Assembly: GCA_944382785.1 (NCBI GenBank)
Contig: CALWNO010000017.1
Location: 1-47,751 of the forward strand
Direction of reading: 5' to 3'
DNA length: 47,751 nt
Source of the DNA: an uncultured Gemmiger sp.
Lineage (GTDB): Bacteria; Bacillota; Clostridia; Oscillospirales; Ruminococcaceae
Shown: positions 3,442 through 42,986 of the stretch, in pieces
Layout of the letters: each line of letters opens with the position of its first letter
Numbering within the stretch: position 1 is the stretch's first letter
Notes under the pieces: generated by a model
What the model saw: the letters and a program-made list of their open reading frames with translations, nothing else
Databases searched by the model: none
What the model was told of the DNA's origin: nothing
Made by a program: the position numbers and the translations under genes

Positions 3442-4822
<1,381 letters not shown>

Positions 4823-4834
4823 ACAAACCCAAAA

Positions 4835-4883: not shown

Positions 4884-4897
4884 TTGGTTTCAGTGGG

Positions 4898-5278
4898 TCA
4901 CAGCACGGCCACGCACTCGATCTCCACCAGGGCGCCCTTGGGCAGGGCCCCCACCTGGAAGGCCGCCCGGGCCGGGAAGGGCTCGGTGAAGGCCTCGGCG
5001 TAGACTTCGTTCATGGCGGCAAAGTCCCCGATGTCCTGGAGCATGACGGTGGTCTTGACCACATGGGACAGGTCGGTGCCCGCCTCTTTCAGGATGTTGC
5101 CCAGGTTCTTCAGGCACTGGCGGGTCTGGGTGCGGATATCCTCCCCCGCAAAAGCCCCGGTGGCGGGGTCAATGGGGATCTGTCCGGAGACATAGACGGT
5201 ATCCCCCACCCGGATAGCCTGGGAATAGGGGCCGATGGCGGCGGGGGCGTCGGGGGTGTGAACAGCGTTGCGTTCCAT
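4898..5278 (-). CDS. ridA: RidA-family enamine/imine deaminase
   Basis: This 126-residue protein is full length for the YjgF/YER057c/UK114 (RidA) family. It carries the family marks: GPYSQA at residues 16-21, SGQIP at 31-35, the catalytic arginine R104 in PARAAFQV, and E119 near the C-terminus (VEIECVAV). RidA proteins form trimers in the cytoplasm and hydrolyse reactive 2-aminoacrylate and related enamines released by PLP enzymes. The gene is monocistronic, with its own promoter upstream and a strong shared terminator downstream. Nothing in the neighbourhood links it to a single pathway. Confidence 0.93.
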   Translation of the reverse strand: MERNAVHTPDAPAAIGPYSQAIRVGDTVYVSGQIPIDPATGAFAGEDIRTQTRQCLKNLGNILKEAGTDLSHVVKTTVMLQDIGDFAAMNEVYAEAFTEPFPARAAFQVGALPKGALVEIECVAVL

Positions 5279-5307
5279 ACATTCTGCCTTCTTTCGCTTT
5301 TTGTCCC

Positions 5308-5336
5308 AGTATACCAGCCCGGCATCCCCTTGGCAA
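5308..5336 (-). promoter_or_regulatory. ridA promoter
   Basis: On the minus strand TTGCCA (5336-5331) is followed after exactly 17 bases by TATACT (5313-5308), about 30 bases before the ridA start codon. Confidence 0.7.
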
Positions 5337-5340
5337 GGGG

Positions 5341-6129
5341 TCAGCCCAGGGCGGTGTCCAGCACCATCATGACCAGAAAGCCCGCCATGACCCCCAGGGT
5401 CCCGCTGTGGGAGTGCTGGCCCAGGTTGGCTTCGGGGATGAGCTCCTCCACCACCACGTACAGCATGGCCCCGGCGGCAAAGGCCAGCAGCCAGGGCATG
5501 AGGGGCTGCACGCTCCCCGCCGTGGCCGCCACCAGGATGCCGAACACCGGTTCCACCACCCCGGAGGCCGCCCCGCTACGGAAGGCCCGCCACCGGCTGA
5601 ACCCGGCCTGGCGCAAGGGCAGGGAGATGGCAGCCCCTTCGGGGAAGTTCTGGATGCCCATGCCCAGGGCCAGGGCCCAGGCAGCGGACAGGGCCCCCGC
5701 CTCCCCGTGGCGGGCGGCCAGGGCAAAGGCCAGGCCCACGGCCATTCCTTCGGGGATGTTGTGCAGGGTCACCGCCAGCATGAGCAGGGTGGTGCGCCGC
5801 CAGTCGGAGGGCAGCCCCTCCGGTTTTTCCTCATTCAGGTGGAGGTGGGGCAGCAGCCGGTCCAGAGCCAGCATGAAGGCGATGCCCACCACAAAGCCCC
5901 CGGCGGCGGGCTGCCATCCGGACACCCCGGCGGCTTCGGCCTCCTCCATGGCGGGCAGCAGCAGGCTGAACACCGACGCCGCCACCATCACCCCTGCCGC
6001 AAATCCCAGGAACACCCGCTGCAGTCCGGCCTGGATGGCCCCGCGGAAGAAAAACACCGTGGCCGCCCCCAGGGCGGTCATCAAAAAGGTGAAGCCGGTT
6101 CCCCCGGCTGCCCACAAAACGCTTTGCAT
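5341..6129 (-). CDS. ZIP-family metal transporter (ZupT-like)
   Basis: This protein of about 262 residues is hydrophobic with around eight membrane segments. It carries both metal-site motifs of the ZIP family: HNIPEG in one helix (about residues 123-128) and NFPEG in the next (about 161-165). A histidine-containing loop (PHLHLNEE) lies between segments. ZIP proteins move divalent cations such as zinc, iron or manganese into the cytoplasm. I prefer the ATG at 6129 because AGGAGG is 8 bases upstream; an in-frame ATG at 6135 lies only 2 bases from that ribosome site. A GTTAG-N6-CTAAC inverted repeat sits 60-80 bases upstream. Metal specificity cannot be read from the sequence. Confidence 0.88.
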   Translation of the reverse strand: MQSVLWAAGGTGFTFLMTALGAATVFFFRGAIQAGLQRVFLGFAAGVMVAASVFSLLLPAMEEAEAAGVSGWQPAAGGFVVGIAFMLALDRLLPHLHLNEEKPEGLPSDWRRTTLLMLAVTLHNIPEGMAVGLAFALAARHGEAGALSAAWALALGMGIQNFPEGAAISLPLRQAGFSRWRAFRSGAASGVVEPVFGILVAATAGSVQPLMPWLLAFAAGAMLYVVVEELIPEANLGQHSHSGTLGVMAGFLVMMVLDTALG

Positions 6130-19482: not shown

Positions 19483-20502
19483 TCAGTTCAGCGTTTTGCC
19501 AAAAAACTCCAGTTCCGGGCGCAGGGTCTGCATCAGGTCGTCAAAGGCATCGGGGGTCAGGCTCTGGGCGCCGTCGCTCTTGGCCTTGGCCGGGTTGTTG
19601 TGCACTTCGATCATCAGCCCGTCCGCCCCCACGGCCACGGCGGCCGCTGCCAGAGACGGCACCATGAAGGCGATGCCCGCCGCATGGCTGGGGTCGATGA
19701 CCACCGGCAGATGGGTCATCTTTTTCAGCATGGGCACCGCCGAAATGTCCAGGGTGTTGCGCATGCTGGTCTCGAAGGTGCGGATGCCCCGCTCACACAG
19801 CACCACGTTGGGGTTTCCCTCGGCCATGATGTACTCGGCGCTCATGACCAGCTCTTCCAGGGTGGAGGAGAGCCCCCGCTTGAGCAATACCGGAATATTG
19901 GTCCGGCCCACTGCCTTGAGCAGCTCAAAGTTCTGCATATTCCTCGCGCCGATCTGGATCATGTCCACCCTGGCTTCCTCAAACAGGGGGATGTGCTCGT
20001 TGTTCATCAGCTCGGTGACGATGGGCTGGCCGGTCACCGCCCGGGCTTCCTGCAGCAGTTCCAGCCCCTCGGCCCGCAGGCCCTGGAAGCTGTAAGGGCT
20101 GGTGCGGGGCTTGAAGGCGCCGCCCCGCAAAATGGACGCCCCCGCCGCCTGGACCCTTTTGGCCACCTCAATGATCTGCTCCTTGCTCTCCACACTGCAG
20201 GGGCCGGCCATCACCGCAAAGTTGCCCCCGCCGATCTTGTGGCCGCCCACATCCACCACCGTGTCGTCGGGATGAAACTTGCGGTTGGCCTTCTTGTAAG
20301 GCTCCGATACCCGGCGGCAGGTGTCCACCACCGGGTTGGCCAGCACCCAGCTTTCGCTCAATGCCTTGGTGTCGCCGATCAGGCCCAGAATGTGGGTGTC
20401 CTTGCCCACCGAATCGTTGATCTCAAATCCCATGGACCGCAGTTCCCCGCAGAACTGGTCCACCTGGTCCTTGGGTGCATTGTGCTTCAGTACGATGATC
20501 AT
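19483..20502 (-). CDS. aroF: 3-deoxy-7-phosphoheptulonate (DAHP) synthase, type I-beta
   Basis: This 339-residue enzyme condenses phosphoenolpyruvate and erythrose 4-phosphate, the first step of aromatic amino-acid synthesis. The first 70 residues form the ferredoxin-like regulatory domain of the Thermotoga-type I-beta enzymes (MIIVLKHNAPKDQVDQF). The TIM barrel follows, with VMAGPCSVES, ILRGGAFKPRTSPYSFQG, the QIGARNMQNF stretch, PVLLKRG and VIDPSHAAG, all typical PEP- and metal-binding elements. The ATG at 20502 has AGGAG upstream; longer frames start in the promoter and are rejected. The gene is monocistronic. An 8-base-arm palindrome lies exactly in the spacer of its promoter, so repression by an aromatic-amino-acid-responsive or other regulator is likely. 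Confidence 0.94.
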   Translation of the reverse strand: MIIVLKHNAPKDQVDQFCGELRSMGFEINDSVGKDTHILGLIGDTKALSESWVLANPVVDTCRRVSEPYKKANRKFHPDDTVVDVGGHKIGGGNFAVMAGPCSVESKEQIIEVAKRVQAAGASILRGGAFKPRTSPYSFQGLRAEGLELLQEARAVTGQPIVTELMNNEHIPLFEEARVDMIQIGARNMQNFELLKAVGRTNIPVLLKRGLSSTLEELVMSAEYIMAEGNPNVVLCERGIRTFETSMRNTLDISAVPMLKKMTHLPVVIDPSHAAGIAFMVPSLAAAAVAVGADGLMIEVHNNPAKAKSDGAQSLTPDAFDDLMQTLRPELEFFGKTLN

Positions 20503-20563
20503 GGTTTTTCCTTCTCCTTTTATCCCAAGCCCCGGGGGCGGGGCGGTTCTTTTGACAGGCATT

Positions 20564-31465: not shown

Positions 31466-31497
31466 AACAAAAAGCCGCCGGGGAAAATCCCCGGCGG
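31466..31497 (-). terminator. Terminator after the 96-residue gene
   Basis: A 9-base perfect GC stem (31475-31483 with 31489-31497) is followed on the minus strand by CTTTTTGTTG. Confidence 0.88.
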
Positions 31498-31513
31498 AAG
31501 GCTTCTTGGCTGC

Positions 31514-31804
31514 TTATTTGGTTTCCTTGAGCTGGCCGCGCAGCATGATATCGCCGAAGGAGAGGGCGTTGAACAGCCCCACCTTGTTGGCCTGGCGGAC
31601 GATGCGCTCGGGCAGAGGTTTGGAGTCATCGGTGGACAGCAGGATGATGTGGACCTTGTCGGCCACGTCAATGCCGTTTTCCTTCTTGGTGGTCAGGATC
31701 TGCAGGTAGACGATATAGGGGTCCGTCATGTTGCCGTAGTAGATGTCATTGCCGCAGCGCACCAGCGGGCGGCCTTTATAGGTCAGCTGAGGGGTAAAAG
31801 CCAT
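31514..31804 (-). CDS. Conserved small protein of unknown function (96 residues)
   Basis: This 96-residue soluble protein begins MAFTPQLTYKGRPLVRCGN and ends with a basic tail. It has no signal, membrane segment or known motif; a central IYYGNMTDPYIVYLQILTT stretch suggests a compact beta-rich fold. The pattern is familiar from other gut clostridia, but I know no function. Although it follows the glycan operon on the same strand, it has its own promoter (31901-31873) and a palindrome just inside the transcript (31836-31857). It is therefore a separately controlled gene, not simply the operon's last member. A strong terminator follows. Confidence 0.75.
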   Translation of the reverse strand: MAFTPQLTYKGRPLVRCGNDIYYGNMTDPYIVYLQILTTKKENGIDVADKVHIILLSTDDSKPLPERIVRQANKVGLFNALSFGDIMLRGQLKETK

Positions 31805-31835
31805 AGGAATACCTTCTTTCACTGGGGAATATATG

Positions 31836-31906: not shown

Positions 31907-32269
31907 TCACAGGTCCAATTTCTCCCGTTCCACCTTTTCCCGGTCCAGGGCCACCTGTTCGGTGAGGATGCGCAGCCGGGAATCCATCTGGCTGATGCGG
32001 ATGGACAGGAAGAACTGTTTGGCCAGCAGCAGGAAGATGATGACGATATACACAAAGTTGATGGGGCTCTGGAAGCCCAGCAGGCGGGAGGCCCAATAGG
32101 CGATGCCGGGGAAGATGGCCAGCACCAGCAGCACCACGCTGAACAGCAGCCAAAAGATGGTATCCTCGATCTGGACTTTGGCGCGGCGTACCCGCATGAG
32201 CACATACAAAGCGGTGACCAGGCTGCCCACGATGAGGCAGACCCGGATGATCATTTGGTCGAACAACAT
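31907..32269 (-). CDS. DUF2304 family membrane protein
   Basis: This 120-residue protein has three membrane segments (about residues 5-25, 36-58 and 71-90) and a charged C-terminal helix (RISQMDSRLRILTEQVALDREKVEREKLDL) that looks like a short coiled coil. DUF2304 proteins are usually found beside GT2 glycosyltransferases that make lipid-linked sugars, as here: the GT2 stop is one base upstream. It likely supports that enzyme at the membrane, possibly as a partner for a polyprenyl-phosphate sugar step. It is the last gene of the glycan operon. Confidence 0.82.
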   Translation of the reverse strand: MLFDQMIIRVCLIVGSLVTALYVLMRVRRAKVQIEDTIFWLLFSVVLLVLAIFPGIAYWASRLLGFQSPINFVYIVIIFLLLAKQFFLSIRISQMDSRLRILTEQVALDREKVEREKLDL

Positions 32270-32270
32270 C

Positions 32271-32990
32271 TCACAGGCTCCTTTCCGGGTAGGGGGTTTC
32301 GGTGTCGCGTTTGCGGAACCACTGGATGAGCAGGATGGAAATGGCCATTTTGACCATATACTGCACGCTCTTATAGAAGGTCAGGTAGCTCTGCCCCGCG
32401 GTGCGCTCCCCCATTTTGACCTGCACTTCCTTGACCACCGCGCCGTTCTTGATGAGGTAGCTGATGGTATCCGGCTCGGGACCGTAGTTCAGGTTCTGGG
32501 CAAACTCCTCCACCATGGCCCGGTTGAACATCCGCATACCGGAGGTGGGGTCGCAGATAGCCCGGCCGGTGGTCAGCCGGATGGCCCAGCTGATGATATA
32601 GCTGCCCAGCATGCGCAGGGTCTTGGGCTTTTTCACCGTGAGGAACCGGCTGCCGATGACGATGTCCGCCCCATCCTCCAGGGCCTCCAGCATGGGGGCG
32701 ATGTATTCCGGCTTGTGCTGGCCGTCGGCGTCCAGCTGGATGGCGCAGTCGTAGCCGTTTTCGGCGGCATAGCGCAGCCCGGTCTGGAAAGCCCCGGCCA
32801 GGCCCAGGTTCACCGGCAGGTCGATGAGGCGGAACCCGTTGGCCCGGCAGATGGCGGCGGTGTGGTCCCGGCTGCCGTCGTTGACCACCACATAGTCATA
32901 CTGGGGGTAGTTTTTCGCCAGGTTGCCTACCACTTTTTCAATGTTGGCTTCCTCGTTGTAGGCGGGGATAACGATGAGCAATTTTGACAT
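32271..32990 (-). CDS. Glycosyltransferase family 2, dolichyl-phosphate mannosyltransferase (DPM1)-like
   Basis: This 239-residue enzyme has the GT2 fold with VIPAYNEEANI at residues 7-17, VVNDGSRDH near 34-42, and the metal-binding DXD in LDADGQHKPE near 87-96. The domain is followed by ISYLIKNGAVVKEVQVKM and one or two hydrophobic segments at the C-terminus. Such proteins move a sugar from a nucleotide donor to a polyprenyl phosphate, giving the donor used by DUF2142- or GT-C-type enzymes on the outer face. It sits one base from DUF2304 and near the DUF2142 gene, which fits that cycle. The ATG is at 32990. Confidence 0.88.
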   Translation of the reverse strand: MSKLLIVIPAYNEEANIEKVVGNLAKNYPQYDYVVVNDGSRDHTAAICRANGFRLIDLPVNLGLAGAFQTGLRYAAENGYDCAIQLDADGQHKPEYIAPMLEALEDGADIVIGSRFLTVKKPKTLRMLGSYIISWAIRLTTGRAICDPTSGMRMFNRAMVEEFAQNLNYGPEPDTISYLIKNGAVVKEVQVKMGERTAGQSYLTFYKSVQYMVKMAISILLIQWFRKRDTETPYPERSL

Positions 32991-33016
32991 AGCTGCTCCT
33001 TTTTTGCGGGCGGGGT

Positions 33017-34162
33017 TCAGGCCCCGGTCCCTTCCTTGGTTTTTTCCCGGGCGATCGCCATTATTTTAGCAAAGACCGCATCCCATGTAAAGTGGGCGGT
33101 CAGGTTGGCATAAGCGGCTTCGGCCTTGCGCCGGGCGGCTTCCGGGTCGGCCAGCAGGGCCTGCAAGGCGGCACGGATGGTGGCCGGGTCGGTATCGGCC
33201 AGCAGGGTGCCGTACTCCGGCCCGGGCAGCAGTTCCTCGGTGCCGGCGGTGGGGGTGCACAGGATGGGGCAGACGCAGGCCGCCGCCTCCAGCAGGGTGG
33301 TGGGGAACCCTTCCGCATACCGGGTGGGCAGGCAGTAGACGTCCGCCTGCTGCAGCAGCTGCACCACCTGATGGTGGGGCAGCGCTCCGGGGGCCAGGGC
33401 CCCCAGCTCCCGCAGCCGGTCCCGTTCGGGGCCGTCCCCCACCGCCACCAGCAGGGTGTCGGGCAGGTCCGCCACCGCCCGGGCCAGGGCCACCGCCCCT
33501 TTTTCGGGGATCAGGCGCCCCACAAAGAGCACCAGTCTGGCGGGCGGTTGTACGTGCAGCAGTTCCCGCCAGTCGGCAGGCTCCTTCAAACTTTCCTGGA
33601 TCAGGGCCACGGGGTCCACGGCGTTGGGCAGGCAGCCTTTGGCGGTGATGCCGAAGGTTTGCAGCCACCGGCAGACGGCGGCTGACACCCCATAAAAATC
33701 CGGCCCGGTGCGGCGGATGATGCCGCAGGCCAGGTGTTCATACATCCGCCCGGCCAGCCCCACCAGGCCGCCCCCCACCGGCATATACCCGGTGGAATGG
33801 TCGATGACGATAGCCGGCACCCCGGCCCGGTGCACCGCCCGGGCGGCCAGGATGCTCTGGGTATACATGCGGGTCTGGATGACGCAGAAGTCCGGCTCGG
33901 TCTCCTGCACCAGACGGCGCAGAGCCCGGGCCCCCGACGGCCGCACCACCGGGAACCGCCCCTTCATCACCGGCCATACCGGCAGGCGGCGGACCTCGAT
34001 GTGGTTCTCGTCGCTTTCCCGGGCGGGCAGACCGGGCAGAGCGCTGGTCACCACCACAGCCCGGTAGCCCTCCTTGGCAGCGCGCAGGGCCAGGTTCCAG
34101 GTATACCGCTCCACCCCGCCCACGGTGGGCAGGTACTGGGCGGAAAAGAAGAGGATGGTCAC
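33017..34162 (-). CDS. Glycosyltransferase family 4
   Basis: This 381-residue enzyme has the two-domain GT-B fold. The N-terminal half starts ILFFSAQYLPTVGGVERYTW, typical of GT4 enzymes, and the C-terminal half has GRLIPEKGAVALARAV and the donor-binding EGFPTTLLEAAA (E-x7-E motif) near residues 290-300. It has no membrane span and works at the inner face of the membrane. The start is a GTG at 34162 with AGGAGG 7 bases upstream; no ATG alternative fits. It lies within the glycan operon between the DUF2142 gene and the GT2 gene. Donor and acceptor sugars are unknown. Confidence 0.86.
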   Translation of the reverse strand: MTILFFSAQYLPTVGGVERYTWNLALRAAKEGYRAVVVTSALPGLPARESDENHIEVRRLPVWPVMKGRFPVVRPSGARALRRLVQETEPDFCVIQTRMYTQSILAARAVHRAGVPAIVIDHSTGYMPVGGGLVGLAGRMYEHLACGIIRRTGPDFYGVSAAVCRWLQTFGITAKGCLPNAVDPVALIQESLKEPADWRELLHVQPPARLVLFVGRLIPEKGAVALARAVADLPDTLLVAVGDGPERDRLRELGALAPGALPHHQVVQLLQQADVYCLPTRYAEGFPTTLLEAAACVCPILCTPTAGTEELLPGPEYGTLLADTDPATIRAALQALLADPEAARRKAEAAYANLTAHFTWDAVFAKIMAIAREKTKEGTGA

Positions 34163-34183
34163 GGGCAGCCTCCTAAAATCGGG

Positions 34184-36820
34184 TCACCGGGCCAGGATGA
34201 CCAGCATGATGTTGAGCAGGACCCCGAAGTTCACCGCACACAGCCCGCATACCAGCCGGGAAGCGGCGGTGTCGGCGTCGGCAGCCAGGATGTGCCGGGG
34301 GGCACACACCAGCAGCGCCAGGGGCAGCACCGGCAGCAGATAGCGTCCCTGCAGCCCGTAGACGGTCTCATAGTAGGTGGGGGTCCATACGATGCACCCG
34401 GCCAGGGCCAGGGCACAGCAGGCCAGCACCGCCCCTACGCACCAGGCACGGTAATGCCCGGCAGGCAGGCGGTCGAATTCGGTATCCCGGCGGGCGGGCA
34501 GGGCGGCAAAGGCCAGCAGCCCGTACAGGGCGATGACCCAGCCCCAGCCCAGCTCCACCGAGTTGTAGCTGAGCAGGCCCCCCACCAGGCCCCGGAGGTA
34601 GTCGTCGGTATTGTAGACGGCGGTACGCACCACCAGCAGCAGGGTGTCGGACAGATGGGTGAGCACATACCCGGGGGTATAGGTGATCAGGTCCTCGGGG
34701 GAAGCCACGCTCTGGCTTTCCCGCACGGCCCGGGCTGCCTCCACCCGCTGGACCAGGATCTCCCGGTCCAGGGGGTAGTATTCCGCGTCCTCCATCCCCA
34801 CGGTGACTCCGCATTCGGTCAGTTCCCGCACGCCGGGTTCCACGGTATAGCAGGCCTTGAACAGCAGCACCCGTCCCTGTTCGGTAAGCACCTCCCAGGA
34901 CCAGTCGTTGACGGCCTGACCGCCGAAGTAGGTCAGGGTCACGGCCCGGATAAAATCTTCATCGGTGAAGGAACTCTGTTCCATCTCACTGGGGCTGAAG
35001 AAGAAGCTCTGCCCCAGCTCGGCGGCGCTCACGTCTCCGTCTACCAGGGCCTGGGCCCAGAACTCCACCTCGCTGTCCGCCACATCCTGGGTCAGACCGC
35101 CGCAGTAGAACACCCGGCGCACAAAGGCTTCGGGGGTGTGTTCCAGGTATTCGGCGGGGATGGCGTCAAAGTAGTCTTTCAGCGGGCTGCTCTGGGCGGC
35201 GGTCTCCGCCGTCTGGGTCTCCGCTGCCGGGGCGGCGTGGGCCGCCGGGGTCTGGACCGAGGTGGTTTCCGCCTGGGCGGCGGTGGTTTCCGACGCCGCA
35301 GCGGTGGCTTCGGTTTCATCGTTGTGCAGCAGGCCGGTGAGCATGGCCCCGTTCAGGCACAGGGCCAGGGCACAGCAGGCGGCCAGATACACCGCCTTTT
35401 TCAGCCGGGCCCGGGTCCCCAGCCGCTTGCCGGGGATGAGCAGGAAGAGGGCCGCCAGGGGCAGATATACCAGCTTGGCGGGGGCCAGCAGCACCCCGGC
35501 CGCCCCCAGGCCCAGCAGGTGGGGCAGGGTGACGGGATGGCCTTCATCCGCAAAGACCGCCTGCATACACAGGGAGGTAAAGACGAAGGCCAGGCCCAGC
35601 AGCAACGCGTCCCGGCTGAAGGAGGCCGCCAGGTGCAGGGTCATGGGCAGCAGGGCCGCCGCCGCAAATACCCGCCGTCCGAAGGGGGCGAACCGTACGG
35701 CCAGGGACGCCAGCACCGCAAAGGCGATGAGGTTGGCCAGCCGTCCCAGCATGAGCACCGGCACAAAGCCCAGGTGCAGCAGAAATCCAAGGAACACCGC
35801 CGCCGCGCTGATGACATACAGGGTGGGGTTGCGGTCGGTCTGGTATTCGGCCAGCTCCACATGGCTGTCGAAGCTGTCGGTGGTGGTGGTGAAGAGGTTT
35901 TCGGACAGTTCCTGCCAGGTAAAAACGGTGGTGTTTTCGTCCTGGAGCAGGCTATTCACATCATGTTCCCGGCGATAGCTCATATCGATGGGCACGTTGC
36001 CCATCCGCCAGTCATCACTGCTGAAGAAGTTGGCCCAGCGGCAGGCCAGGGTGAAGGACTGGTTGATGTGGTACTTTTCATCGGGGGCGGCGTAGGGCGG
36101 CAACACCACGCTGTACAAAAGGCCGAAGGCCACCGCCAGCACCAGCACCAGCCGGTGCAGGGGCAGTTTGCGGCGCAGGGCCGTGCGCACCCCGAAAAAG
36201 ACCAGAAGAGAGGCCAGCACCGCCATCCCTATAAAGAACCGGTCCAGAAACCCGCCGATGGTGCGGTAGGTCACGATCAGGGAGAGGGTGGCGTCCTGTT
36301 CCGCCCCGGCAAAGGTGTAGGTCTCCTCCCACAGGGCGGTGCCGTTGGAGGTACCCACGCACAGCCGCCCGGTACCGGTGTATTCGGGGGTCAGGGTCAG
36401 GCAGTAATGCCCGCCCAGCTTGCCGGGCACGGCCTTGTCCAGCCCGAGGCCGGTATACTGCCCGGGCACGATGAGGCTCATATCTCCCCAGGAGGTGGCC
36501 AGCACTTCCCCGGTGTCGGCGTCGGTGAGGGTCACGTTCAGGGTGCCGGCGGGCTGTTCCCCGTTGGTGCCAAAGACCACCGCCACCGCCAGCAGGTCCT
36601 CCTCATAGGAAAAGGTCTGGCTGACGCTCTGGCCCTCCTCGATGGGAGCGCTCATGAGGGTGTAATCGTCGCTGATTTTCTGGGACAGGCTTTTCTGGGT
36701 GTTGCCCCGGACCACGGCCAGCCACAGCCCGGCGGCCACCGCCAGGCAGAGGAGCAGCGCGCCCAGGGCCAGCACCGTGGGGCTGTGTGCCCGATACAAT
36801 TTGCGCAGTCTGCCGGTCAT
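34184..36820 (-). CDS. DUF2142 family membrane protein (candidate GT-C-type glycosyltransferase)
   Basis: This 878-residue protein has about 12 membrane segments. After an N-terminal segment comes an extracytoplasmic beta-rich region (residues 40-200), then the motif PPYAAPDEKYH near 240-251, which is the DUF2142 mark and resembles the acidic active-site loop of GT-C transferases. A Thr/Ala-rich linker of about 45 residues (roughly 500-545) sits in an outside loop. Enzymes of this shape use polyprenyl-phosphate sugars to decorate glycans outside the cell. The KdsC stop and this start overlap (ATGA), so the two genes are translationally coupled. I chose the ATG at 36820. The precise activity is not proven. 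Confidence 0.8.
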   Translation of the reverse strand: MTGRLRKLYRAHSPTVLALGALLLCLAVAAGLWLAVVRGNTQKSLSQKISDDYTLMSAPIEEGQSVSQTFSYEEDLLAVAVVFGTNGEQPAGTLNVTLTDADTGEVLATSWGDMSLIVPGQYTGLGLDKAVPGKLGGHYCLTLTPEYTGTGRLCVGTSNGTALWEETYTFAGAEQDATLSLIVTYRTIGGFLDRFFIGMAVLASLLVFFGVRTALRRKLPLHRLVLVLAVAFGLLYSVVLPPYAAPDEKYHINQSFTLACRWANFFSSDDWRMGNVPIDMSYRREHDVNSLLQDENTTVFTWQELSENLFTTTTDSFDSHVELAEYQTDRNPTLYVISAAAVFLGFLLHLGFVPVLMLGRLANLIAFAVLASLAVRFAPFGRRVFAAAALLPMTLHLAASFSRDALLLGLAFVFTSLCMQAVFADEGHPVTLPHLLGLGAAGVLLAPAKLVYLPLAALFLLIPGKRLGTRARLKKAVYLAACCALALCLNGAMLTGLLHNDETEATAAASETTAAQAETTSVQTPAAHAAPAAETQTAETAAQSSPLKDYFDAIPAEYLEHTPEAFVRRVFYCGGLTQDVADSEVEFWAQALVDGDVSAAELGQSFFFSPSEMEQSSFTDEDFIRAVTLTYFGGQAVNDWSWEVLTEQGRVLLFKACYTVEPGVRELTECGVTVGMEDAEYYPLDREILVQRVEAARAVRESQSVASPEDLITYTPGYVLTHLSDTLLLVVRTAVYNTDDYLRGLVGGLLSYNSVELGWGWVIALYGLLAFAALPARRDTEFDRLPAGHYRAWCVGAVLACCALALAGCIVWTPTYYETVYGLQGRYLLPVLPLALLVCAPRHILAADADTAASRLVCGLCAVNFGVLLNIMLVILAR

Positions 36821-37341
36821 ACAGGATTCTCCCCTTTTGCGTGGATGCCAAAGCCTTTGGCCATGGCCTCTTCCAGGCGGCCTTCCCGGCGCAGGAACTG
36901 GGCGATGGCCTCCCGCACGGCGCCCTCGCCGCCCTTCTTGGTCCCCACAAAGTCCGCCCGGGCGGCCACGGCGGAAGCCGCGTCGGCGGGGCAGGCCACA
37001 AAGCCGCACAGGGCCATGGCGGGCAGGTCGTTCCAGTCGTCCCCGCAGTAGGCCACTTCCTCCCGGGAAAGGCCGTGCTCCGCCATGAAATCCCGCAGGA
37101 AGGCAGCCTTGTCCTTCACGTTCTGGAACACATAGTCGATGTGCAGGTCGGCAGCCCGGCGGCGCACCGCCTCACACTCCCGCCCGGTGCAGATCATCAC
37201 CTGCACCCCCACGGCCCGGGCGGCCACAATGCCCGCCCCGTCCTTGATGGCGAATTTTTTCAGTTCGTTGCCGGTGGCGTCATAGTAGACACCGCCGTCG
37301 GTCATGGTCCCGTCCACGTCCAGCACCAGCAGTTTGATCAT
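36817..37341 (-). CDS. kdsC: 3-deoxy-ulosonate-8-phosphatase-like HAD enzyme (KdsC type)
   Basis: This 174-residue protein is a capless HAD phosphatase of the KdsC group. It carries LVLDVDGTMTDGG (nucleophile and acid/base aspartates D8 and D10), ICTGRE (motif II), NVKDKAAFL with the motif III lysine, and CGDDWNDLPAM (motif IV). KdsC removes the phosphate from 3-deoxy-manno-octulosonate 8-phosphate before activation with CTP. Here it follows the HMGL-type aldolase by 14 bases and precedes the DUF2142 gene by overlap. The substrate may be a different ulosonate phosphate, since no KdsA is present. The ATG at 37341 is the natural start. Confidence 0.85.
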   Translation of the reverse strand: MIKLLVLDVDGTMTDGGVYYDATGNELKKFAIKDGAGIVAARAVGVQVMICTGRECEAVRRRAADLHIDYVFQNVKDKAAFLRDFMAEHGLSREEVAYCGDDWNDLPAMALCGFVACPADAASAVAARADFVGTKKGGEGAVREAIAQFLRREGRLEEAMAKGFGIHAKGENPV

Positions 37342-37355
37342 AGGTTGCCTCCGGT

Positions 37356-38924
37356 TCAGGCATTCATCAGGTTGGCGTACTCGCTGGGAGTCACAAATTC
37401 CATGGGCAGGCCCCCGGCCTGGATGGCCCGCAGCGCCGCCGCCACCTGGGCGTTGTAGGCAGCGCCCCGGTCGGTGTGGGTGTGCAGACGGCCCTCGGCA
37501 TAGGCGTTCTCCCCTTGGCGGTAGCCGTCGGCCCCGGCCAGCATTGCCTTGGATACACCGCACAGCCGCAGCAGCCGCAGCAGCATGAGGACGCTGTTGC
37601 CCTGGGGGGCATCGGCAGCGCACAGGCGGTCATAGTTGACGGTAAGGGGGTTGTCGGTGCGCAGGTTGCTGGTGAGCACCGCCGGGCAGGGCAGGCTGTC
37701 GATCTTGTCGTACCGCTTGCTGGAGGAGAAGAAGGCGTAGTCCGGCTTGCAGAAGTCCGGGCAGAAGTTGGCGGAGATCACCACATCCGCCCCGGCCTTG
37801 CCCGCGGCCACCTGGCCTTCGGGGGTGCCCAGGGTGGCGCCGGGGGCCAGCACCAGCACCTTCTTGCCCGCCAGGGCGGCGCGCAGGGTGTCCAGGGCTG
37901 CCGTGTCGTCGATGCGGCGGCTCTGGTATTCCTTGTACAAACCGTCGGCGTAGGCGGCGTCAAAGACGGTGGCCTTGGACCGGTCCAGCTTGGCCAGAAT
38001 GTGGTTGATGTCCCGGTTGGTCAGATCCCCTTTTCCCAGGAAATGCTCGGCATAGTTGCGGTGGAGGTTGTACCGGGCGGAGAGGAAATACGCCGGGGTG
38101 TAGCCCCACTGGGTCTCCCCTTTCAGGGGGGCGATGTGGTCCTGGATAGCGTCCATGAGCTCGTCGATGTCGTAGCCCATGCCCAGGGTGTCGTTCATAT
38201 AGTCGGCCACCAGCTCGATGGGCAGGTTGCCGGGGATGCGGCCCATGCCCAGCAGGCTGGCGTCCACGGTGGTATCCCGCAGCAGGTGCTTGTCCAGGAA
38301 TTCCTGGGCCAGGCAGAAGCTCAGGGCCATGTTCTCATGCAGATGCAGCCCCACCCGGATGTCCGGGTCCAGGTTGTGGTCCACCAGGCTGACGATCCGC
38401 TCCAGGTCCCGGCGGCGCATGCTGCCGAAGGTATCTACGATGGAGAACTGGTAGGGATGGATGGCATTCACCTGGTCCAGGATCCACAGGATGTCCTTGT
38501 CCGCATAGCCCATGATGTTGATGGGGTTGATGGACAGCTTGTACCCCCGGGCCTTGACCTCCCGGGCAAAGTCCATCCCTTCCCGGATGTCGTAGTCGTG
38601 GGCGGTGATGCGGATGAGCTCGATGCCGTGGCCTTCGTAGGGGGAAAGCTGGGCAATATCGTAGTTGGAGCGCATGGCCATGCCGGTATACATGGTGTGG
38701 CCGGTGTGTTCGGGCAGCAGACGGTTCAGCTCCTCGATGGTGCGGCAGACAGTCACATCGGGGTCGTACTTGTCCACATTGCGCAGAAAGCCCACTTCCA
38801 CCATGTCCACCCCGGCGCGGGTCAGGGTGGCGATGATGTCACGGGCGGCGGAGAATCCCCAGCGCCAGTTGTTCACATACCCGCCGTCGCGCAGGGTGCA
38901 GTCCAGCAGTTTGGTGTTTGCCAT
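37356..38924 (-). CDS. HMGL/DRE-TIM aldolase fused to an unknown C-terminal domain (candidate ulosonate synthase)
   Basis: This 522-residue protein has two parts. Residues 1-320 are a DRE-TIM barrel of the HMG-CoA-lyase / 4-hydroxy-2-oxovalerate-aldolase type. LLDCTLRDGGYVNNW at 6-20 holds D8 and D13, GVDMVEVGFL is at 38-47, the metal ligands H194 and H196 are in GLHLHENMA, and GMGRIPGNLPIE is at 226-237. Residues 350-522 form a separate Rossmann-like domain (KKVLVLAPGATLGTPEG, then VISANFCPDFCKPDYAFFSS) that reminds me of DUF115/GT42-type folds; this is a weak resemblance. The aldolase class makes 4-hydroxy-2-oxo acids from pyruvate and an aldehyde, and a 3-deoxy-2-ulosonate is such an acid. 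With KdsC and KdsB flanking it, it could build the ulosonic acid. No KdsA or NeuB is nearby. Confidence 0.72.
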   Translation of the reverse strand: MANTKLLDCTLRDGGYVNNWRWGFSAARDIIATLTRAGVDMVEVGFLRNVDKYDPDVTVCRTIEELNRLLPEHTGHTMYTGMAMRSNYDIAQLSPYEGHGIELIRITAHDYDIREGMDFAREVKARGYKLSINPINIMGYADKDILWILDQVNAIHPYQFSIVDTFGSMRRRDLERIVSLVDHNLDPDIRVGLHLHENMALSFCLAQEFLDKHLLRDTTVDASLLGMGRIPGNLPIELVADYMNDTLGMGYDIDELMDAIQDHIAPLKGETQWGYTPAYFLSARYNLHRNYAEHFLGKGDLTNRDINHILAKLDRSKATVFDAAYADGLYKEYQSRRIDDTAALDTLRAALAGKKVLVLAPGATLGTPEGQVAAGKAGADVVISANFCPDFCKPDYAFFSSSKRYDKIDSLPCPAVLTSNLRTDNPLTVNYDRLCAADAPQGNSVLMLLRLLRLCGVSKAMLAGADGYRQGENAYAEGRLHTHTDRGAAYNAQVAAALRAIQAGGLPMEFVTPSEYANLMNA

Positions 38925-38947
38925 AACAAAGTACCTCGTTGAAATGA

Positions 38948-39682
38948 TTATTCGGGGTGTGTTTCGGAAAGGGTGCGGCGGACCAGGTCCAGGTCCTTGG
39001 GGGTGTCCACACTCACCGTCTTGTAGGGGCTCTTGATGGCGTGCACCTTGTGCCCGTGCTCGATGAAGCGCATCATATCGTTTTCCTCCGCCAGTTCCAG
39101 GGCGGATTTGGGGGTGTCGTGGTAGAACTGCAGGGCCTTGCGGCTGTACAGCTGGATGCCGGTGACCTTCTCGTACTCAAAGTCCAGGGTCCCTTTGGGA
39201 TAGGGGATGGGGCTGCGGGAGATCATCAGGATTTCCCGGGCCGCGTTGGTGACCACCTTCTGGTTGGAGAAGTCCACCACGTCCGCCGGGTGGGTCATGA
39301 CGTTGGTGAGCACCGCCACATAGTAGGGGTCCTCGGGCAGCTCCTTGGGCAGAATCAGGTCGAAAGCCTTCACGTTGATGAGGGGCTCATCCCCCATGAC
39401 CTGCAGGTAAAGGTCGGCTTCCAGCTTGGTGGAGACCTCCCAGATGCGCCCGGTGGGGGTGTCGTGGTCGGGGCTGGTCATCAGGCAGTTCATGCCGTAG
39501 GTCTTGCAGGCGGCCTCGATGCGCTCGTCGTCGGTGGCAATGACCACGTCAGACAGGGCGGCACACTTTTTGGCTTCGTTGTACACCCACCAGATCATGG
39601 GTTTGCCCAGGATATCGGCCAGAGGCTTGCCCGGCATGCGGGAGCTCTGGTAGCGGGCGGGAATGACGGCAACGGTTTTCAT
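38948..39682 (-). CDS. kdsB: CMP-3-deoxy-ulosonate (CMP-Kdo) synthetase, KdsB type
   Basis: This 244-residue protein is a full-length cytidylyltransferase of the KdsB family. It starts VAVIPARYQSSRMPGKPL (residues 4-21), the nucleotide-binding signature, and has ATDDERI near 49-55, the metal site VMGDEPLI near 95-102, then RSPIPYPKG and an ending DTPKDLDLVRRT. It links CMP to a 3-deoxy-ulosonic acid such as Kdo, forming the activated donor for transfer. In Gram-negatives this feeds lipopolysaccharide; here the host appears Gram-positive, so the product should be a capsule or wall glycan. It lies 23 bases after the aldolase-coding strand's upstream neighbour, inside one operon. The exact ulosonic acid is unknown. 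Confidence 0.88.
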   Translation of the reverse strand: MKTVAVIPARYQSSRMPGKPLADILGKPMIWWVYNEAKKCAALSDVVIATDDERIEAACKTYGMNCLMTSPDHDTPTGRIWEVSTKLEADLYLQVMGDEPLINVKAFDLILPKELPEDPYYVAVLTNVMTHPADVVDFSNQKVVTNAAREILMISRSPIPYPKGTLDFEYEKVTGIQLYSRKALQFYHDTPKSALELAEENDMMRFIEHGHKVHAIKSPYKTVSVDTPKDLDLVRRTLSETHPE

Positions 39683-39702
39683 GATAAAACGCGACCTTTC
39701 GT

Positions 39703-40698
39703 TTATTCAGGTTGGCCAGACTGGGCGGCGGCCAGGGCCCTGGCGTCGTCCAGGGAGACAAAGATGTTTTCTTCGGCGGCGGTAAAGCCCCGCAGCACCC
39801 AGCTCTGTACCGTGACCGCCCGGCGGAATTTGCCGGGCAGACAGAAGTTCAGCACCTCGCTGGGCATGGTGCGCTCCAGCACGGTGGCACCGGGAAAGAG
39901 CGCCGTGTAGTCGGTGTCGTCCCGGGGATGGGTCTTGATGAAAAGGGGGCCGGTGGTATATTTTGCGGCCACTGCCTTGAAAATGGCGTCCTGTTCGGCC
40001 TGGTCCATGAGCCCGTCCTGCACAAAGCTGCGGGGCAAAAGCAGGGTGGCCCCGGCGTAGGTGGCCGGGTCCTCGGGCAGGGGCTGAGAGACAAACACCC
40101 GGCGCACGGCGGCCTTTTCCTCCTCGGTCAGTCCCGCCAGCAGCGCCCGGGCGCTGAATTTGCATAGCTTTTCCCGGGGAAAGAGGGTACACTGGTCCGG
40201 GTCTTCGCTCTCCACGGCGGCACAAGCGGGGCTGTCCCCCCAATAGAGGTAGGGACGGCGGGCAAAATCCGCCGCGGCCCGCTGTTCGGTGAGCAGGTGC
40301 TGGTCGGTGTCCAGGGTACCGCCCACCGTGTCCTCGCACAGGGTATAGGGCGCATGGCAGTCCTGGAGATACCGCCCGGCCACGCTCCAGTCGTTGCTGA
40401 TGCGGATGGTGCCGTAGGCGTTTTTGTCCAGTTCCGGGCCTACCCCGGCCTTTTCATAGGCCCGGCGGTTGCGATAGTGCCCCAACGGCCCGGTGACGAT
40501 ACCTTGCCACCGGGATTCGTGGAGGACGGCCACCTCGCGGAAGGCGCCGTCCAGCTTGCCGGAAGCGGCCAACGCGTCGGCGCCGGGGATCTGCTCACTG
40601 AGCCAGACGGCCTGGCCGCCCCCCGCCCGCAGCGCCCGCACCAGGGCAAGAAGCAGGTGGTAGGCGGTGTGGCAGATGTACAAATCGGGTTTTGCCAT
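39703..40698 (-). CDS. Sialyltransferase-like glycosyltransferase (GT52-type resemblance)
   Basis: This 331-residue soluble protein begins KPDLYICHTAYHLLLALVRA (residues 3-22), a pattern common to GT52 and polysialyltransferase-like enzymes. It continues with CEDTVGGTLD near 120-129, FIKTHPRDDTDY near 257-268 and MPSEVLNFCLPGK near 282-294; the HP motif is the usual CMP-binding mark in that group. It sits next to a CMP-ulosonate synthetase, so a CMP-sugar transferase is the natural reading. Its donor would be the product of KdsB. I chose the ATG at 40698, 2 bases after the ABC transporter stop. Assignment to the exact family is not certain. Confidence 0.62.
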   Translation of the reverse strand: MAKPDLYICHTAYHLLLALVRALRAGGGQAVWLSEQIPGADALAASGKLDGAFREVAVLHESRWQGIVTGPLGHYRNRRAYEKAGVGPELDKNAYGTIRISNDWSVAGRYLQDCHAPYTLCEDTVGGTLDTDQHLLTEQRAAADFARRPYLYWGDSPACAAVESEDPDQCTLFPREKLCKFSARALLAGLTEEEKAAVRRVFVSQPLPEDPATYAGATLLLPRSFVQDGLMDQAEQDAIFKAVAAKYTTGPLFIKTHPRDDTDYTALFPGATVLERTMPSEVLNFCLPGKFRRAVTVQSWVLRGFTAAEENIFVSLDDARALAAAQSGQPE

Positions 40699-40700
40699 CT

Positions 40701-41993
40701 TCACCCCTCCGCAGTGGTGTCCAGCACCTGGACCGGCGGAAAGTGGATGCGGCCCCAGCCCGCGGCCCATTCAGGCATGGACAGGTCGGCGTTGGTCACC
40801 TCAAAGGCGAACTCGGTCACCGGCTTGTCCAGGCAGACGGCCTGGGCCAGGGACCCGTCGAACACGTCGATATAGAAGAAGTACTGGCCCTCGCCCAGCA
40901 GGGAGGGGTCAAAGGTAAAGTCGGTGGTGTAGAGCTTGCCGGGCACGGCCGGGCCCAGGTCCACCGGGTGGGTGATGCCCACGGGGGTGGAGTCCCGGAA
41001 ATGGAGGTTCAGCTTCATGTTCACCCCGGAGAAGGGCTCCGCCACCCGCCAGGTGATGCGCACCCGCACCTTTTCCTTGTCCTCGAAGACGCTGGATTCC
41101 TTGTCCAGGAAGTCCAGGGTCTCCAGCCGCAGCCGCTTGCCGGCGCTGCCGGTCATGCGGGACACATGGGTCAGGTCGTAGTGGACCACGTTCACGTCGG
41201 TGGTCTCCATATACACGGCGATGGCCTGTTCCACGTCCCCGTCAAAGATGACCTTGCCCTTGTCCAGCACCACGCACCGGGTGCACAGCTGCCGGATGGT
41301 GGACATGTTGTGGCTGACATACAGGACCGTACGCCCCTCCTGCCCGGCCACGTCGGACATCTTGCCCAGGCATTTCTGCTGGAACTTCATATCGCCCACG
41401 GCCAGGACCTCGTCCATGACCATGATCTCACTGTCCAGGTGGGCGGCCACCGCAAAGGCCAGCTTGACGAACATGCCGCTGGAATACCGCTTCACCGGGG
41501 TGTCGATGAACTCCCCGCACTCGGAAAATTCGATGATCTGGTCCAGCTTGGCGTCCACCTCGGCCTTGGTCATGCCCAGAATGGCGCCGTTCATATAGAT
41601 GTTTTCCCGGCCGGTCATCTCGTTGTTGAAGCCGGTGCCCACTTCCAGCATGCTGGCCACCCGGCCCCGCAGCCGGATCTCCCCTTCGGTGGGGGCGGTG
41701 ATGCGGGAGAGGATCTTCAAAAGAGTGCTTTTGCCGGCGCCGTTGCGGCCGATGATGCCCAGGGCTTCCCCCTGGTAGACGGTCAGGTCCACCCCGTTCA
41801 GGGCCATGAAGGTCTGGCCGAAGAGGCGGCTGTCGGTGCCGATGACGGTGTTGGGGTCCTCCTTGCCGCGGACCCGGGCCCACCAGCTCTGGAGGTCGTG
41901 GGTGAGGGTACCGCCGCCGATCTGGCCCAGCTTGTACTGTTTTTTCAGGCCCGATACCTGAATGACCGGGCGCTTTTCGTTTGCCTGTGCCAT
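40701..41993 (-). CDS. Polysaccharide ABC exporter, ATP-binding subunit with C-terminal carbohydrate-binding domain (Wzt type)
   Basis: This 430-residue protein has an ATPase domain with Walker A GRNGAGKST at 82-90, signature YSSGM, Walker B IMVMDEVLAVGD and the switch SHNMSTI. This is the TagH/Wzt branch, which exports undecaprenyl-linked glycans. Residues 275-430 form an extra beta-rich domain (MKLNLHFRDSTPVG, VPGKLYTTDFTF, GEGQYFFYIDVFD) like the Wzt C-terminal domain, which in known systems recognises the modified end of the polymer. So the exported glycan probably carries a terminal mark. In the operon order the ulosonate genes follow, and a terminal ulosonic acid is one candidate for that mark. 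Confidence 0.88.
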   Translation of the reverse strand: MAQANEKRPVIQVSGLKKQYKLGQIGGGTLTHDLQSWWARVRGKEDPNTVIGTDSRLFGQTFMALNGVDLTVYQGEALGIIGRNGAGKSTLLKILSRITAPTEGEIRLRGRVASMLEVGTGFNNEMTGRENIYMNGAILGMTKAEVDAKLDQIIEFSECGEFIDTPVKRYSSGMFVKLAFAVAAHLDSEIMVMDEVLAVGDMKFQQKCLGKMSDVAGQEGRTVLYVSHNMSTIRQLCTRCVVLDKGKVIFDGDVEQAIAVYMETTDVNVVHYDLTHVSRMTGSAGKRLRLETLDFLDKESSVFEDKEKVRVRITWRVAEPFSGVNMKLNLHFRDSTPVGITHPVDLGPAVPGKLYTTDFTFDPSLLGEGQYFFYIDVFDGSLAQAVCLDKPVTEFAFEVTNADLSMPEWAAGWGRIHFPPVQVLDTTAEG

Positions 41994-42005
41994 TGGGTAT
42001 CCTCC

Positions 42006-42887
42006 TTACACGGTATCCATAAAGGTCTTTTCAATCCGGCTGAACAGGATGGTCCCCAAAGCCAGGGCCGCCAGGGTGAACACCACGCTGTATGCGAGTC
42101 CGCCCACACTCACGGTACCGGTGCCCAGGGTGGCCATGCGGAAGACCTCGATGGGGGCGGTCATGGGGTTGAGCATCATCAGCGCCCGCAGGCGGGGGCT
42201 CTCGCTCAGGCTGGACAGAGGGTACACCACCGGGGAGATGTACATCCACAGCTGCACGCCGAAGCCCACGGCGATGGCCAGGTCCCGGTATTTGGTGGTC
42301 AGGCTGGACACGATGATGCCCACGCCCAGGCCCAGCAGCATGACTTCCACGATGACCAGAGGCAGGGCGATGAGCCAGGGGGTCAGGTGCATCTCGGCCC
42401 CGGTGAGGGCAAAGCCCACCCAGAACAGGGCATACATGATGAACTGGATGAAGAAATTGATGAGGCTGGTCAGTGCCTGGCTGATGGGGGTGGTCAGGCG
42501 TGGAAAGTACACCTTGCCGAACACCTGGCTGTTGGCCACAAAGGTGTTGGCGGTGTTGTTGATACAGCTGGAGAAGAAGGTCCACACCGTGTTGCCCGCC
42601 ATGTAGAAAAGGAAGGAGGGGGAGCCGTCGGTGGAAAGACCCGCCAGCCCGCCGAAGACCACGTTGAACAGCACGGTGGTGATCAGGGGGTTGAGGATGA
42701 TCCAGGCCGGGCCCAGCACGGTCTGCTTATACAATACGGTAAAGTTGCGCTTGACGAACATGAGAGTCAGGTCGCGGTAGCGCCAGAGTTCGGCCAGGTC
42801 GATATCGAACCAGCCGGTCCGGGGGCGTATAATGGTGGTCCAGTCTTCCTCCGGGGTGGCCGGGGACTGGGGACGATAGTCAGCCAT
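42006..42887 (-). CDS. Polysaccharide ABC exporter, permease subunit (Wzm / TagG type)
   Basis: This 293-residue permease has six membrane segments and the ABC-2 exporter pattern: RYRDLTLMFVKRNFTVLYKQTVLGPAW near the N-terminus, GKVYFPRLTTPIS after segment 2, and a closing segment ending FSRIEKTFMDTV. It works with the adjacent ATPase to move a lipid-linked glycan out of the cell. It is the first gene of the minus-strand glycan operon; a TTGTAT-17-TAGAAT promoter lies 71-99 bases upstream. I chose the ATG at 42887 (MADYRP), since longer frames run into the promoter. AAGGA lies upstream. Confidence 0.88.
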   Translation of the reverse strand: MADYRPQSPATPEEDWTTIIRPRTGWFDIDLAELWRYRDLTLMFVKRNFTVLYKQTVLGPAWIILNPLITTVLFNVVFGGLAGLSTDGSPSFLFYMAGNTVWTFFSSCINNTANTFVANSQVFGKVYFPRLTTPISQALTSLINFFIQFIMYALFWVGFALTGAEMHLTPWLIALPLVIVEVMLLGLGVGIIVSSLTTKYRDLAIAVGFGVQLWMYISPVVYPLSSLSESPRLRALMMLNPMTAPIEVFRMATLGTGTVSVGGLAYSVVFTLAALALGTILFSRIEKTFMDTV

Positions 42888-42957
42888 AGAAATGTATCCT
42901 TCCTGTCGGGGGCGGCTTATATTGGTAAAAGAGTACAGTCCGCCAATCATAGTGTTT

Positions 42958-42986
42958 ATTCTACCATGTTTGGCCGTAAAATACAA
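42958..42986 (-). promoter_or_regulatory. Promoter of the surface-glycan operon
   Basis: On the minus strand TTGTAT (42986-42981) is followed after 17 bases by TAGAAT (42963-42958). Confidence 0.65.

Follow-up and report, generated by a model that had tools for sequence, protein, structure and literature searches.

Bacterial sugar acids of the Kdo (3-deoxy-D-manno-octulosonate) and sialic acid types are built by the phosphoenolpyruvate (PEP)-dependent synthases KdsA and NeuB, and the KdsA-KdsC-KdsB and NeuB routes share their last steps, a YrbI-family phosphatase and a KdsB- or PseF-type cytidylyltransferase. The known substrates of KdsB-type synthetases and KdsC-type phosphatases are ulosonates of eight or nine carbons (C8-C9). 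An operon at positions 31907-42986 of a 47,751-nucleotide stretch of DNA from an uncultured Gemmiger species (contig CALWNO010000017.1 of assembly GCA_944382785.1; the whole stretch is hereafter the window) has the same last steps, and it also has a sialyltransferase-like gene and an ABC exporter in common with these routes. Unlike them, the locus holds no PEP-dependent synthase and encodes instead a protein with an HMGL-type barrel of the DRE-TIM aldolases. It is probable that this operon makes and exports a surface glycan carrying a 3-deoxy-2-ulosonic acid built without PEP, through the successive action of the aldolase, KdsC, KdsB and a transferase.

A predicted pathway and its enzymes

Three adjoining genes would carry the synthesis of the activated sugar, a cytidine monophosphate (CMP)-ulosonate:

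38948..39682, minus strand: putative KdsB-like CMP-ulosonate synthetase (PF02348, 137.3 bits)
37356..38924, minus strand: two-domain protein, N-terminal HMGL / DRE-TIM aldolase (PF00682, 61.1 bits, cut-off 29) and a C-terminal domain suggestive of a sialyltransferase/MptE-like fold
37356..37955, minus strand: the C-terminal domain of the aldolase protein, residues 324-522 (AlphaFold2 model and Foldseek)
36817..37341, minus strand: KdsC / YrbI-family HAD phosphatase (TIGR01670, 137.4 bits, cut-off 106.95)

In the proposed pathway, the metal-dependent N-terminal barrel would join the enolate of pyruvate to a phosphorylated aldose, yielding a 4-hydroxy-2-oxo (3-deoxy-2-ulosonate) phosphate that KdsC would dephosphorylate and KdsB would convert to the CMP-ulosonate. 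A GT52-like protein of the operon, and perhaps the C-terminal domain of the aldolase too, would bind or transfer the CMP-ulosonate, and the Wzm/Wzt exporter with the GT2/DUF2304/DUF2142 set would export and decorate the glycan. Throughout this scheme we infer the catalytic steps, the direction of synthesis, pyruvate as the donor, the length of the sugar chain and the role of the C-terminal domain.

The KdsB-like protein scores as a cytidine triphosphate (CTP):ulosonate cytidylyltransferase with PF02348 and with NF003952 (218 bits over a cut-off of 193), and it stays under the thresholds of the kdsB equivalog TIGR00466 (118.2 under 155.2) and of NF009905 (238.6 under 255). The closest solved sequence is 1gq9, which we take to be the capsule enzyme of E. 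coli. When the two are aligned, residues K19, D98 and D226 correspond by motif to the Lys and two Asp described as conserved in the excerpt of PMC3149649. Likewise, the phosphatase is of the YrbI/KdsC type by its TIGR01670 score and falls under the equivalog cut-offs of KdsC (146.5 of 208) and of the Kdn-9-phosphatase family NF058599 (151.3 of 180), the latter being its best NCBIfam match. Its closest solved sequence, 3e81, carries the PDB label acylneuraminate cytidylyltransferase and is presumably a Kdn-9-phosphate phosphatase, in agreement with that best match.

The two-domain aldolase was modelled by AlphaFold2 with a predicted local distance difference test (pLDDT) score of 89.4. Its N-terminal barrel matches 3dxi and DmpG-type enzymes (1nvm) both in sequence and in fold, as judged by sequence searches and Foldseek. 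R12, D13, H194, H196 and N198 are invariant in 59 of 59 alignment rows, and the DRE-TIM Arg-Asp pair and the two His align with those of DmpG, in which the two His are presumably the metal ligands. A motif GMG(R/K)xxGN carries Arg in 55 and Lys in 4 of the 59 rows and has Ala in DmpG. One may speculate that this Arg/Lys binds phosphate; Arg also occurs at this position in five far proteins, so that a basic residue here does not set the family apart.

Genomic company of the aldolase

Within the genus, the two-domain aldolase is present in 27 of 34 congeners (split over two contigs in G029), and KdsB is present in exactly the same 27. Both are missing from G002, G012, G013, G017, G023, G027 and G028, of which G027 is 99% complete and the other six 68-87%; G017 and G028 hold a single-domain relative of 30% identity. 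NeuB occurs in 32 of the 34 congeners, including six of the seven without the aldolase. The association of aldolase with KdsB has a Fisher p of 1.9e-7, uncorrected for kinship and gene adjacency, and that of NeuB with KdsB a p of 0.37. The initial annotation had offered as its own refutation a kdsB gene that accompanies neuB or kdsA among relatives and not the aldolase; the reverse was found, KdsB occurring in 27 of 27 congeners with the aldolase and in none of the seven without it. In this genus NeuB does not follow KdsB, and the aldolase does. Because the congeners share ancestry and the aldolase and KdsB genes are neighbours, the seven negative genomes could go back to one or a few events in which the operon was lost as a unit.

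The source genome itself (2.68 Mb, 93.6% complete; Gemmiger is placed in Bacillota, Clostridia by the NCBI taxonomy) was searched for both classical synthases. KdsA was not found genome-wide, and neither KdsA nor NeuB is present in the window. Two PF00793 matches were considered as a hidden KdsA and discarded: one, on contig C21, lies among shikimate-pathway genes as read from their translations, and the other, at 19483-20562 of the window, is a 3-deoxy-D-arabino-heptulosonate 7-phosphate (DAHP) synthase with the ferredoxin-like domain DAHP_snth_FXD. Two genuine NeuB genes, scoring 313 and 284 bits, lie elsewhere in the genome, so that the proposed absence of both synthases stands for KdsA and, for NeuB, is confined to the window. 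As labelled from translations, the NeuB gene on contig C55 belongs to a legionaminic-type cluster (aminotransferase, CBS/nucleotidyltransferase, NeuB and NeuC-like genes), and that on contig C3 to a pseudaminic-type cluster (aminotransferase, PseF-like, NeuB and PseG-like genes). The C3 cluster also encodes a second Wzm (52% identity to that of the window), a second Wzt (50%) and a protein with a polysialyltransferase match below cut-off. The source genome thus holds two paralogous export clusters, one with PseF-like and NeuB genes, the other with KdsB, the aldolase and KdsC.

Beyond the genus, the best 80 of 576 confirmed relatives (591 pattern matches) in a scan of named genomes were examined. 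These loci are mostly from Bacillota, with others from records titled Helicobacter sp. TUL, Bacteroidales, Akkermansia, Synergistaceae and Spirochaetaceae. Some taxon titles of metagenome-assembled genomes (MAGs) may be binning errors; the N-terminal aldolase domain of a 'Pseudogracilibacillus' MAG (L088) is identical to that of a Mediterraneibacter (L089). On a plasmid of Leisingera caerulea, a complete record, a 536-residue aldolase is followed by a gene annotated as 3-deoxy-manno-octulosonate cytidylyltransferase and by a HAD hydrolase. A CMP-sugar synthetase of the KdsB or PseF type is found in 74 of the 80 named loci and a phosphatase in 59 (KdsC type in 44, a second HAD type in 15, the two together in none), by profiles (KdsB, PseF, KdsC, HAD2, ThDP, IspD and TagD) that were built from the clusters of these same loci and are not independent there. 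NeuB is found in none of the 80 named loci and in none of the 25 class-sample loci described below, with a profile resting on the two NeuB genes of the source genome.

A genome-wide census of KdsA and NeuB covered 50 of the 80 named genomes. KdsA exceeds its cut-off in six, which by title are Synergistaceae, Akkermansia (2), Bacteroidales (2) and Helicobacter, and NeuB exceeds 190 bits in 22; from the NeuB counts here and in the source genome, matches under 52 bits were dropped, as they overlap PF00793 or TIGR01362 places and were taken as DAHP synthases. For 24 of the 50 genomes neither synthase was detected; the fetched aldolase locus of every one of these includes a KdsB- or PseF-type gene, which in some lies several genes away from the aldolase. 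Judged by title, six of these genomes are strain records (Mediterraneibacter, Niameybacter, two Paenibacillus, Bacillus and Flavonifractor). The initial annotation had called for a search of related genomes for the gene set and for kdsA or neuB elsewhere in the genome. The 24 genomes in which aldolase and CMP synthetase share a locus while KdsA and NeuB go undetected, together with the co-occurrence within the genus, support its central proposal, an aldolase in place of KdsA/NeuB.

Gene fusions bear on the order of the steps. In L185, aldolase, C-terminal domain and KdsC form one polypeptide of 766 residues beside a PseF-type gene, and in L062 aldolase and C-terminal domain are joined to a different HAD phosphatase in 795 residues. 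Such aldolase-phosphatase fusions suggest that the product of the aldolase is a phosphate ester handed to the phosphatase, and with synteny they support the previously proposed sequence of aldolase, phosphatase and cytidylyltransferase. The L062 fusion is part of a second cluster in a same-genus genome (G010, L062:3851-13356), where it lies close to a single-domain aldolase, to KdsC and to several PseF-type matches.

In an evenly drawn sample of 391 class genomes, 25 contain two-domain matches, the source genome among them; besides the locus of the window, 25 two-domain loci were examined, one genome holding two and one locus being split by a frame break. None of their aldolases (24 of 25 compared, without the split one) exceeds 86% identity with a named aldolase. 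A CMP synthetase is found in 14 of these loci and a phosphatase in 17, KdsC and the second HAD type never occurring together. Ten of the eleven loci without a CMP synthetase carry an acetolactate-synthase-like thiamine diphosphate (ThDP) enzyme; in this sample the two partners never co-occur, and one or the other is present in 24 of the 25 loci. Among 24 single-domain HMGL control loci, CMP synthetase and phosphatase are both at 0 of 24 and the ThDP enzyme at 4 of 24; L062 and L063 were excluded from the controls, as they belong to, or adjoin, the full family. Eight of the controls were placed on a tree with the family: a separate group contains five of them, and the other three (L064, L065 and L067) fall inside the family, so that the control set is mixed. 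Merely coincidental neighbours were rejected on the counts from the genus, from the class sample and from the controls taken together.

On a quick tree of 130 rows, the CMP/ThDP label changes five times against a mean of 15.4 for shuffles of the ThDP label, a value as low being reached in 0 of 500 shuffles, with near-copies inflating the clustering of labels. The ThDP enzyme is found in 7 of the 80 named loci, and a two-domain aldolase shares a locus with it in L169, L171, L175 and L177-L182. L179 additionally holds a CDP-glucose 4,6-dehydratase (RfbG; CDP, cytidine diphosphate) and RfbH, both over cut-off. According to the excerpt of PMC12247030, hydroxy 2-oxo acids are substrates of two YerE-like enzymes, ErwE and MMAR_2332, the first of which joins such an acid to CDP-4-keto-3,6-dideoxyglucose to give erwiniose. 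Acids of this class are what a pyruvate aldolase would be expected to make, and from context we infer that the neighbouring ThDP enzymes are YerE-like. The ThDP loci are possibly branched-chain sugar clusters in which the aldolase would supply the hydroxy 2-oxo acid. Since 2-oxo acids are consumed by CMP-ulosonate synthetases and by YerE-like enzymes alike, a common 2-oxo-acid supply is the simplest reading of the family. A single-domain relative on a plasmid of Desulfobaculum bizertense (L160) lies beside RfbH and two transketolase-annotated genes, a possible branched-sugar cluster.

Six nearer single-domain loci (L187-L192), counted apart, show a further partner. A CMP synthetase is present in two of the six, a phosphatase in one and a ThDP enzyme in two, and in three an IspD-type domain is fused to the aldolase (L190:4916-6670, L191:4354-6102 and L192:1522-3312). 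L190, the one scanned, passes the cut-off for D-ribitol-5-phosphate cytidylyltransferase. These fusions show that the aldolase family possibly also serves another type of cytidylyl pathway.

Weighing the alternatives

The assignment of the CMP-ulosonate supply to the aldolase meets several counterpoints. The residue after RDG-x is Tyr16 in the window protein (Tyr in 51, His in 7 and Phe in 1 of the 59 rows), and it is His in DmpG, where we take it to be the base; and TIGR03217, the 4-hydroxy-2-oxovalerate aldolase family, gives 68.6 bits, far under its cut-off of 286. A plain DmpG was discarded on this score, and by sequence comparison the protein is better described as a relative than as a member of the 4-hydroxy-2-oxovalerate aldolases: of the class first assigned to it, the fold, the Arg-Asp pair and the two His are retained, and the family cut-off and the His are not. 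Loci without a CMP synthetase number 6 of 80 among the named genomes and 11 of 25 in the class sample, only two of the six nearer single-domain relatives have one, and 3 of the 80 named loci hold both a CMP synthetase and a ThDP enzyme. Because L064, L065 and L067 lie inside the family, the missing CMP linkage is not limited to distant proteins. In one Gemmiger species (L053), the operon lacks KdsC. No sugar-phosphate isomerase or aldose-making gene that could provide the aldehyde was recognised in the operon. Finally, many of the genomes are draft MAGs, which makes absences soft and some taxon names doubtful, and the two genomic NeuB genes could in principle feed KdsB.

This last point leads to an explanation in which the genomic NeuB enzymes supply the acid for KdsB and the aldolase has an unrelated role in the operon, as the two NeuB genes and the presence of NeuB in 32 of 34 congeners would allow. 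Both genes, however, lie in the C55 and C3 clusters with their own partner genes, KdsB is tracked by the aldolase and not by NeuB in the genus, and 24 of 50 carriers have neither NeuB nor KdsA detected, so that we hold a NeuB supply to be very unlikely. Alternatively, the aldolase might act in the cleaving direction, as a NanA-like salvage enzyme or a quality-control lyase removing unused ulosonate. Pyruvate aldolases are reversible, and the direction is unreadable from sequence; if it were a lyase, those 24 carriers would nevertheless encode a CMP-ulosonate synthetase while lacking any detected synthase, and the phosphatase fusions of L185 and L062 suit synthesis followed by dephosphorylation, which makes cleavage very unlikely. 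The aldolase could also make a short hydroxy 2-oxo acid, from a small aldehyde and pyruvate for instance, to serve as a building block or ornament and not as a C8-C9 sugar acid. Its relatives beside ThDP enzymes point that way, as does the use of short 4-hydroxy-2-oxo acids by YerE-like ThDP enzymes such as ErwE (PMC12247030, excerpt). The partners in the window are, by contrast, a KdsB-type synthetase and a KdsC-type phosphatase, enzymes of C8-C9 substrates. In addition, the conserved Lys and two Asp given in the excerpt of PMC3149649 are matched by K19, D98 and D226, and a short acid is a most improbable product here. The synthesis of a 3-deoxy-2-ulosonate by the aldolase thus remains our preferred account of the operon.

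The operon, the C-terminal domain and described systems

The open reading frame (ORF) list with Pfam and NCBIfam scans gives ten packed minus-strand genes, from Wzm to DUF2304, separated by gaps of 1-26 bases, the start of DUF2142 overlapping the stop of KdsC. The start codons of Wzm, the GT52-like gene, KdsC and DUF2142 are the analyst's choice. Besides the synthesis genes listed above, the operon and its downstream flank comprise:

42006..42887, minus strand: operon gene 1, Wzm-like ABC-2 polysaccharide export permease (PF01061, 63.1 bits, cut-off 26.9)
40701..41993, minus strand: Wzt-like ABC export ATPase (PF00005, 79.8 bits)
39703..40698, minus strand: GT52 / polysialyltransferase-like protein, candidate CMP-ulosonate glycosyltransferase (PF07922, 32.0 bits, cut-off 26.1, partial)
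34184..36820, minus strand: DUF2142 membrane protein (PF09913, 106.7 bits, cut-off 30.1)
33017..34162, minus strand: GT4 glycosyltransferase (PF00534, 91.3 bits; PF13439, 63.5 bits)
32271..32990, minus strand: GT2 glycosyltransferase (PF00535, 104.9 bits)
31907..32269, minus strand: DUF2304 small protein adjoining GT2 (PF10066, 97.6 bits, cut-off 25.5)
31475..31822, minus strand: possible gene 11 (31514-31822; ORF) and a terminator-like stem (31497-31475; 10 pairs plus a T-run)

Several of these assignments are partial. The C-terminal domain of Wzt is weakly matched (PF14524, 23.9 bits under a cut-off of 30.4). The GT52-like protein reaches 16.1 bits with PF07388, below cut-off, and has no NCBIfam match and no solved relative in the sequence search of solved structures. 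The GT2 protein, predicted to be of the polyprenyl-phosphate-sugar synthase type, scores 101 bits with NF058614 (PpgS), under the cut-off of 370. The DUF2142 protein is perhaps a GT-C-type glycosyltransferase, and all 14 same-genus loci have a relative of it in the corresponding position.

All ten genes are found in the same order in 10 of the 14 same-genus loci fetched (L040-L053), with L041, L042 and L050 ending at a contig end or at the limit of the fetched stretch. The cultured Gemmiger formicilis ATCC 27749 (L084) has the operon as well. As this arrangement is kept, it is not due to chance, and gene families, order and conservation together confirm the operon as initially annotated. In L053, an extra membrane-protease-like ORF (4449-5474, judged by eye) lies between KdsB and the aldolase. 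The single promoter that had also been proposed is not established: a consensus scan of the region gives no promoter-like site just upstream of Wzm, and its five sites (shuffle mean 2.9, sd 1.8) include three on the minus strand, near 33091, 31904 and 31671. Downstream of DUF2304, the small gene at 31514-31822 has no Pfam match and has relatives in 10 of 22 genus/family loci, several others ending before that place; this conserved gene and the strong terminator-like stem may extend the operon.

The C-terminal domain of the aldolase was overlooked in the initial annotation, as were the ThDP enzymes as alternative partners. It is modelled by AlphaFold2 with a pLDDT of 94.7 and has no Pfam match in the window protein. 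Its top Foldseek matches in the PDB are mostly mammalian and Campylobacter sialyltransferases (2wml, 5bo9, 2x61 and 1ro7) and the archaeal MptE 8sd5, the cell-division regulator SteA ranking fourth, with E-values of 1.2e-3 to about 2e-2, none under 0.001, and query template modelling (TM) scores of 0.43-0.54. Among 60 C-terminal domains of the family, PF01973 (MptE-like) matches weakly in 14 (best E 7e-4) and CST-I in one (0.002), at a loose Pfam limit under which 39 families match some member; most of those listed do so in just one member, as chance would produce. PF07385 (D-lyxose isomerase) matches in five of the 60 (best E 2e-5) and may be a chance motif. Sequence searches against solved structures gave best E-values of 0.25 and 0.029 in two runs, and a search of a phage collection gave one unannotated match at 39% coverage. 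The structural likeness is thus suggestive of kinship with sialyltransferases and MptE, and we guess from fold and context that the domain may bind a cytidine nucleotide. Because ThDP-linked members carry it too and some CMP-linked members (L112, L115, L187 and L189) do without it, the domain is neither confined to the CMP route nor needed for it.

In its widest form, the proposal is of a third, PEP-independent route to CMP-ulosonic acids, in which a pyruvate-dependent class II aldolase with a sialyltransferase-like domain replaces KdsA/NeuB. The route would be the CMP branch of a modular family feeding 2-oxo-acid sugars either to CMP synthetases or to ThDP branched-sugar enzymes, the attached domain coupling synthesis to transfer or sensing the CMP-sugar, and it would extend over Bacillota and, by record titles, Alphaproteobacteria, Helicobacter, Bacteroidales and others. 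We give this generalization an even chance. None of the papers listed by searches of the open-access PubMed Central literature has, judged by titles and abstract openings, an HMGL-type aldolase in a CMP-ulosonate pathway, which is weak evidence of novelty. If the proposal is true, genes annotated as 'aldolase catalytic domain-containing protein', as in Leisingera, would encode the synthase step of widespread, unrecognised acidic surface sugars of gut and environmental bacteria. These organisms would escape any search for sugars of the Kdo or sialic type that relies on KdsA and NeuB, and new sugars would be predicted on gut commensals such as Gemmiger.

Among described enzymes, DmpG/BphI share with the window protein the fold, the Arg-Asp pair and the two aligned His. 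They differ from it by the His that is replaced by Tyr in most members, by the Ala in place of Arg/Lys in GMG(R/K)xxGN, and by the extra C-terminal domain of the window protein; no aldehyde dehydrogenase is among the ten operon genes. The closest solved sequence and best Foldseek match is Bacteroides vulgatus BVU_2661 (PDB 3dxi), which shares RDGGY and GMGRGAGN and of which only the N-terminal domain is solved, under the title 'N-terminal domain of a putative aldolase' and with no function given. For the C-terminal domain, the best, though weak, structural likeness is to CstII/CstI, ST3Gal, ST8Sia and MptE-like pyrophosphokinases, from which it differs by its smaller size. The YerE-type pathways of yersiniose and erwiniose offer a further comparison: relatives of the aldolase stand beside acetolactate-synthase-like ThDP enzymes, putatively of the YerE type, and ErwE uses 4-hydroxy-2-oxo acids (PMC12247030, excerpt). 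The operon of the window differs, since its ten genes include KdsB and KdsC but none for a ThDP enzyme.

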